Source of the DNA: Halanaerobiales bacterium
GTDB lineage: Bacteria > Bacillota > Halanaerobiia > B1SED10-174
Assembly: GCA_003551905.1 (NCBI GenBank)
Contig: PUNT01000198.1
Span: forward strand, 1 to 48,905
Direction of reading: 5' to 3'
Length of the DNA stretch: 48,905 nucleotides
This document shows, one piece after another, positions 28,593 through 41,598 of the stretch (positions are counted from its first letter, which is position 1; each line of letters starts with the position of its first letter). Below the pieces are notes generated by a model. That model did no database searches, had not been told where the DNA came from, and was given only the letters and a program-made list of their open reading frames with translations. The translations under genes and the position numbers were made by a program.

Positions 28593-28637
28593 AAATAAAA
28601 ATGGACACAGTTGTCGACCTGGCCGACTCCTCTGTCC
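28593..28637 (-). promoter_or_regulatory. candidate terminator/expression platform of the glycine riboswitch
   Basis: Minus strand GGACA-gagga-GTCG-gccaggt-CGAC-aactg-TGTCC-ATTTTTATTT. The 5' GGACA belongs to the aptamer-2 conserved AAGGACAGAGG. Confidence 0.5.
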
Positions 28638-28805
28638 TTTTACCTGAGAGATTACCTTTAAGGCTGCCCCGTCGGTGCCAGCTTAAAAGCTGGAACTCTC
28701 CAGAGTCCTGTCCAGAAACGGTCCTGAAACCTGAGCGTTTCTTTAGAGGTTGCCAACCACTAAATTACGCCTTCGGTGCTAAAAAAAGCTCTCCCGTCCC
28801 TTTCA
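28625..28805 (-). promoter_or_regulatory. tandem glycine riboswitch (two aptamers)
   Basis: Minus strand: ...gggagagc...gcaccgaagg...aaacgctcagg...aggacc... then ...ctggagag...gcaccgacggggcagcc...aatctctcaggtaaaaggacagagg. Directly upstream of gcvT. Confidence 0.95.
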
Positions 28806-28868
28806 TCCAGTCTATATTTGGTCTTTGTTTAAATAATTCTTCTATTTATAAAAAACTCCTGCACGAAA

Positions 28869-41330: not shown

Positions 41331-41360
41331 TTGACTTCATGGAGCTAAATGTGCTATAAT
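41331..41360 (+). promoter_or_regulatory. sigma-A-type promoter for the c-di-GMP aptamer RNA
   Basis: TTGACT (41331-41336), 18-bp spacer, TATAAT (41355-41360) with extended -10 TGC. Confidence 0.75.
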
Positions 41361-41373
41361 TTAAAAAAACAAA

Positions 41374-41468
41374 TCTCTGATAAAGGCAAACCTGTTGAAA
41401 AACAGGGACGCAAAGCTACGGGCCTACGGTCAGAAATTCTGGCTAGGGTGGTCGAGCTGCCGGGGAGA
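41374..41468 (+). promoter_or_regulatory. c-di-GMP-I (GEMM-I) riboswitch aptamer
   Basis: aaaggcaaacctgttGAAAaacagggacgcaaagctacgggcctacggtc...ggctagggtggtcgagctgccgggg. GNRA tetraloop, GACGCAAAGC core, CCUA/UAGG tetraloop-receptor elements. Confidence 0.93.
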
Positions 41469-41571
41469 AATAGACTTTAAGCCTATTTCTCACGGTGTGG
41501 GATATAGGCTTATTTATTTGCAAGGTTTTAGTAAAAGCAAAATTCCTTCTTATCAATCCTCCTTACTACTC

Positions 41572-41598
41572 AAGCCCCTTCGTGGGGGCTTTTTTTTA
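41572..41598 (+). terminator. plus-strand intrinsic terminator
   Basis: aagccccttcgtgggggcttttttttatcc. The U-run is on the plus strand only; the minus direction lacks a T-tract. Confidence 0.85.

Follow-up and report, generated by a model that had tools for sequence, protein, structure and literature searches.

Introduction

Riboswitches that bind c-di-GMP are usually viewed as cis elements serving single operons. Riboswitch-regulated noncoding RNAs are also known, examples being Rli55 and AspocR of Listeria, both under B12 riboswitches (PMC8079631). At Cdi1_4/Cdi1_5-RCd11/RCd12 of C. difficile, whether transcription continues into a noncoding RNA depends on the terminator of a c-di-GMP-I riboswitch (PMC7699646, PMC11477304), and one further riboswitch of the c-di-GMP-I type is listed as an unassigned "orphan riboswitch" (PMC11477304, PMC7699646). 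Termination of the OFF type is the usual mode of the c-di-GMP-I switches in this species (PMC11477304, PMC3649979). Here, we describe a gene-less c-di-GMP-I unit in the window, which is the whole 48,905-nucleotide stretch of DNA analyzed. The window genome was compared with all five sister-genus genomes examined, giving a set of six genomes from two genera. The family is uncultured and known from sediment MAGs, which are filed as Halobacteroidaceae or Bacillota and whose isolate names read as those of soda-lake samples.

Results

Aptamer, Promoter, and Neighboring Genes

The features of the unit are listed in Table 1. The aptamer matched RF01051 with E = 2.5e-14, its 80.4 bits standing against a gathering score of 35. 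This bears out the first-pass annotation, which had recognized a GEMM-I aptamer and named RF01051 as the model for checking it, and c-di-GMP is presumably the ligand as judged from this match. A near-consensus promoter had also been claimed. Our scan found one site in 701 bp versus 1.8 expected by chance, which alone is not above chance; TTGAC and TATAAT are invariant across the six orthologous loci, so that the claim holds on match and conservation together. The window further carries an ordinary tandem glycine riboswitch (28630–28806, minus strand; RF00504, 55.6 and 49.7 bits) located 5′ of apparent glycine-cleavage genes gcvT, gcvH, and gcvPA.

Table 1. Coordinates of the c-di-GMP-I RNA unit and its convergent neighbor in the window.
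Feature	Position	Strand	Remark
Sigma-70 type promoter TTGACT-18-TATAAT, TG extended -10	41331–41360	+	11/12 matches in scan; TTGACT 41331–41336, TATAAT 41355–41360, 18-nt spacer
P1 extension, 5′ strand TCTCTG	41374–41379	+	Pairs with 41461–41466
c-di-GMP-I (GEMM-I) aptamer	41375–41464	+	RF01051, 80.4 bits, model 1–87, full length
P1 extension, 3′ strand CGGGGA	41461–41466	+	Overlaps antiterminator 5′ arm
Antiterminator 5′ arm GAGAAATAG	41465–41473	+	Pairs with CTATTTCTC 41483–41491; predicted fold
Terminator T1 hairpin AAGCCTATTTCTCAC-GGT-GTGGGATATAGGCTT, then ATTTATTT	41479–41511	+	Predicted fold, −19.2 kcal/mol
Tandem anti-Shine-Dalgarno (anti-SD) block ATTCCTTCTTATCAATCCTCCTTACTA, 27 nt	41542–41568	+	25/27 columns invariant in 6 genomes
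Anti-SD motif CCTTCTT in block	41545–41551
Anti-SD motif CCTCCTT in block	41558–41564
Terminator T2, stem 41572–41591 and T-run	41572–41598	+	Found on + strand only
Convergent ORF, 518 aa	41596–43152	−	No Pfam or NCBIfam match

On the plus strand between the aptamer and T2, we found no ORF with a ribosome-binding site or a reading frame conserved across the orthologs, and no ORF precedes T2 in any of the six, in line with the earlier statement that no credible ORF lies there. A co-directional downstream protein gene, which is usual for RF01051 although not strictly defining, is absent in all six orthologs. T2 had been described as a plus-strand-only terminator; this was reproduced, and its stem is retained in the orthologs with two-sided pair changes. 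The next gene is convergent, again as annotated, and in the window it ends exactly at T2, the two overlapping at the stop codon only. The encoded 518-aa protein lies between the RNA unit and degV/pgsA here and is absent from this place in the sister genus. The upstream flank of the unit is a divergent amidohydrolase gene.

The gene-less unit is syntenic in 5/5 sister-genus genomes, where it is again without an ORF and is flanked by the divergent amidohydrolase gene and, downstream, by pgsA on the minus strand. At the two loci measured, pgsA lies beyond T2 by roughly 170–180 nt. Protein identity between the window and the sister genus is 44–47% for PgsA and 59–64% for the amidohydrolase. The comparative search suggested in the first-pass annotation thus found the promoter, T1, the 27-nt block, and T2 kept without an ORF in six genomes.

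Predicted Expression Platform

The P1 extension can form a helix of 5–7 bp in 12/12 family platforms compared, and G002 carries a compensatory change in it (CTCTAG:CTGGAG). T1 and an antiterminator were predicted in the same 12 platforms, six of which lead to ORFs. The segment CTATTTCTC is shared, being both the 3′ partner of the antiterminator and a part of the T1 5′ arm, and the two predicted structures are mutually exclusive; as modeled, this is a standard riboswitch expression platform. For T1, 84.7% of cells were paired compared with ≤57% in slid versions, four pairs showed two-sided changes, and the pair counts exceeded both the shuffled and the slid controls. The antiterminator also exceeded these controls (83.2% paired, one two-sided pair), although its covariation is weaker than that of T1. 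The window T1 has an imperfect U-tract, ATTTATTT. When the window platform was folded by plain MFE, T1 was favored over the antiterminator, and the choice between them would therefore have to be kinetic. A single RNA of ~230 nt had been proposed for this locus. Its end at T2 was kept, but T1 (41479–41511) had been overlooked, and a transcript with two alternative ends chosen by the riboswitch, ~145 nt at T1 and ~230 nt at T2, is more likely. The earlier parts list stood for the promoter, the aptamer, and the final terminator, while it missed the T1/antiterminator region (41465–41511) and the anti-SD block.

Six paralogous platforms of the family occur as tandem pairs (G001:C79, G003:C88, and G004:C210) and precede real ORFs, the pairs leading to an ORF for a small secreted peptide and to a protein of ~545 aa. 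This suggests that the platform type regulates whatever is located 3′ of T1, and T1 is, by this analogy, probably the regulated step. In these pairs (L055, L061, and L064), the two c-di-GMP-I riboswitches are ~700 nt apart; the first stands before a ~65-aa secreted peptide ending in NNPIDVAGA, and the second before a ~545-aa membrane protein with putative resemblance to a degenerate GGDEF protein. In the sister genus, other c-di-GMP-I riboswitches precede apparent flgB flagellar operons (L058, L060, L063, and L067; G001:C110, G002:C31, G003:C1, and G004:C134), and no copy of this type was found among the three aptamers of the window's own, incomplete genome. Another aptamer of the class (L112, G007:C10:468-544, plus strand) is followed by a hydrophobic ORF of ~27 codons with a good ribosome-binding site and a GTG start, possibly a small membrane peptide.

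A second family of the class has two gene-less c-di-GMP-I units whose layout is like that of the window unit without its synteny. Each comprises T1, then a C-rich stretch and a strong T2, and faces a convergent gene; the stretch is CCCCCTT and ACCTCCCTTTC in L099 (G007:C31:44461-44537, minus strand) and ACCCCCTTG in L109 (G019:C17:57245-57330, plus strand). These two units are taken as suggestive only. The heuristic census of ORFs at 132 aptamers across the class mislabeled several loci, and only individually inspected cases were relied on.

Tandem Anti-Shine-Dalgarno Block

The heptamer CCTCCTT is the core of the anti-Shine-Dalgarno sequence. The block lies 3′ of a poorly conserved spacer that follows T1 and just 5′ of T2. 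In the sister genus, it contains two exact CCTCCTT copies located 13 nt apart, whereas the first copy in the window is CCTTCTT. The 16S rRNA 3′ end was not found in the family's own MAGs, so that class relatives were used as a stand-in for comparison. The core of the sister-genus block, CCTCCTTTCTAAG, is identical to the 16S rRNA 3′ end region of two class relatives, and the second sister-genus repeat shares a 13-nt identity with this region. In the window block, the 16S-like match ends after CCTCCTT. Together with the deviating first copy, this limits the term "16S mimic" to the sister-genus block, for which it is a description of sequence likeness rather than a proven principle.

Duplexes of the block with consensus SD sequences were predicted at −14 to −15.5 kcal/mol. 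Thermodynamic folding gave the block a mean unpaired probability of 0.41–0.98 across the orthologs, so it is not open in every one of them. In the predicted fold, the platform GGAG is a possible pairing partner of the first copy; such pairing could add another layer of control, or it could be an artefact arising because tertiary contacts are left out of the folding.

Invariant columns of the block amounted to 93% in the six genomes and to 27/27 (100%) in the five sister-genus genomes. Over six genomes, the aptamer reached 52%, the T1 platform and T2 50% each, and the spacer 21%. The block is present as a single copy in each genome. Its exact pattern was found among 84,980 GTDB species only in the family MAGs and in one unrelated stretch, which lies on two contigs of one archaeal MAG and has no aptamer. 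On these figures, no other part of the locus is under as strong a constraint as the block. A search of 399 genomes of the phylum for a GEMM core plus CCTCCTT gave no credible GEMM match, with the window's own spacing lying outside the range of that pattern. Pattern searches with the reverse complement of the block returned self-matches and ordinary SDs, and no orthologous or conserved target of long complementarity. On the minus strand, the block would read as tandem GGAGG; this meaning was rejected, as no conserved minus-strand ORF accompanies it.

Discussion

We consider it probable that this locus is a complete small-RNA gene under a transcriptional c-di-GMP-I OFF riboswitch, which would yield a ~230-nt trans-acting anti-SD RNA when c-di-GMP is low. 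Transcription would start near 41367. When c-di-GMP is bound, the aptamer and the P1 extension (TCTCTG:CGGGGA) would keep the antiterminator 5′ arm occupied, T1 would form, and a ~145-nt RNA would end there. When c-di-GMP is low, GAGAAATAG would pair with CTATTTCTC, T1 would be blocked, and the polymerase would pass to T2, leading to the ~230-nt RNA with two anti-SD motifs in its 3′ part beside the terminator. Such motifs adjoining a terminator are the layout of many Gram-positive small RNAs. The long RNA may then pair with ribosome-binding sites of mRNAs in trans and block their translation. The aptamer itself is more likely an ordinary cis riboswitch, the "gene" of which is a small RNA. The OFF direction is suggested by the geometry, in which the ligand would stabilize P1, P1 would hold the antiterminator arm, and T1 would form; it agrees with the OFF-type termination of c-di-GMP-I switches in C. 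difficile (PMC11477304, PMC3649979).

A wider reading may be entertained, though we rather doubt it in full: low c-di-GMP would release a tandem anti-SD RNA like the 16S 3′ end that competes with ribosomes for an mRNA regulon, reprogramming translation directly and globally, and another family of the class may have evolved functionally similar RNAs with different C-rich tails (G007:C31 and G019:C17).

The first-pass annotation had left a c-di-GMP sensor or sponge, a trans-acting RNA, and a relic side by side. Conservation of the block above that of the aptamer favors the trans-acting RNA over the sponge. A sponge or reservoir like merRNA of Bdellovibrio, on which the tail would be incidental, is suggested by a gene-less c-di-GMP-I unit with its own promoter and terminator, and merRNA provides a precedent (PMC3627812). 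We nevertheless regard a bare sponge as improbable, since the best-conserved part is the tail and not the aptamer, and since the retained T1/antiterminator platform would be unneeded by a sponge. That paralogous platforms of the family control ORFs would fit a relic whose protein gene was lost or replaced; this is contradicted, and effectively ruled out, by the fact that six genomes from two genera share the gene-less unit in synteny and have all retained its promoter, T1, the 27-nt block, and T2. The full-length RNA might instead act on a protein or on the ribosome, its 16S-like repeats serving as a decoy through non-specific SD or protein binding, comparable to Rli55 sequestering EutV. The 13-nt identity of the second sister-genus repeat and the lack of a specific target in the pattern searches speak for such a decoy, but the window block leaves the 16S match after CCTCCTT, and the conserved non-SD letters of the block (TTATCAAT) suggest sequence-specific pairing, which makes a decoy unlikely.

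Regulation of the convergent gene by an antisense-acting riboswitch would be in keeping with the over-representation of c-di-GMP riboswitches in antisense orientation (152 antisense, 2554 sense; PMC9943018) and with the window ORF that ends exactly at T2. This overlap covers the stop codon only, however, and the convergent neighbor in the sister genus is not this ORF but pgsA, which lies beyond T2, so that the RNA should not reach it; action on the neighbor was accordingly rejected as highly improbable. There is still less to be said for a very short unannotated peptide gene 3′ of T1. Small secreted-peptide ORFs do follow some paralogous riboswitches of the family, but no ribosome-binding site or start stands at a conserved position here, upstream frames differ between the orthologs, and the nucleotide identity of the block is 100% at all codon positions in the sister genus. 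We place very little weight on it and dropped it as a candidate for want of a ribosome-binding site and a conserved frame.

If the small-RNA reading is correct, the riboswitch output would be a translation-blocking sRNA, by which c-di-GMP could directly control the translation of distant mRNAs and affect many genes simultaneously with no protein receptor involved. The unit would also be a specific candidate, backed by conservation, for explaining the so far unexplained c-di-GMP riboswitches described as "orphan" or "antisense" in C. difficile, Bdellovibrio, and genome surveys.

Comparison with Known Systems

Rli55 and AspocR resemble the proposed unit in that a riboswitch controls a noncoding RNA by premature termination, the ligand giving the short form and its absence the long form; they differ in having B12 as the ligand and, as the effector, either an element that binds an ANTAR protein or a long antisense RNA, with no tandem anti-SD block (PMC8079631). 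Their layout of a riboswitch, a regulatable terminator (here predicted), a noncoding part, and a separate terminator was found in the window unit and is kept in six genomes. RCd11/RCd12 likewise have a c-di-GMP-I riboswitch ahead of a noncoding RNA (PMC7699646, PMC11477304), but this RNA is a type I antitoxin of a prophage, which lies antisense to its own toxin gene and is transcribed mostly from a second promoter, whereas the window unit has no antisense partner. Bdellovibrio merRNA is a gene-less c-di-GMP riboswitch transcript with no conserved ORF; it is a massively expressed RNA of 445 nt, proposed as a c-di-GMP reservoir, and the portion of its report considered describes neither an anti-SD block nor a T1 switch (PMC3627812). 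The csRNAs of Streptococcus and other Gram-positive anti-SD sRNAs carry an SD-complementary stretch just before the terminator hairpin, which is thought to block translation initiation (PMC3091779). A conserved stretch of this kind before the terminator was found in the window unit. For csRNAs, the two-component system CiaRH exerts control at the promoter, with no riboswitch described. In the Bacillus cereus group, the c-di-GMP-I riboswitch Bc1 also has an aptamer followed by two intrinsic terminators, both belonging to the leader that precedes the coding gene mcpE (PMC11218506). It had been remarked that c-di-GMP-I riboswitches normally sit in the 5′ UTR of a gene; the gene-less layout is confirmed here, but it is not unprecedented in view of merRNA, RCd11/RCd12, and the orphan riboswitch. 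In the literature covered, mainly open-access rather than subscription journals, we found no report in which a c-di-GMP riboswitch gates an anti-SD small RNA. Riboswitch-regulated noncoding RNAs and gene-less c-di-GMP RNAs were thus already known, and it is the combination of a c-di-GMP-I riboswitch with an anti-SD RNA that appears to be new.
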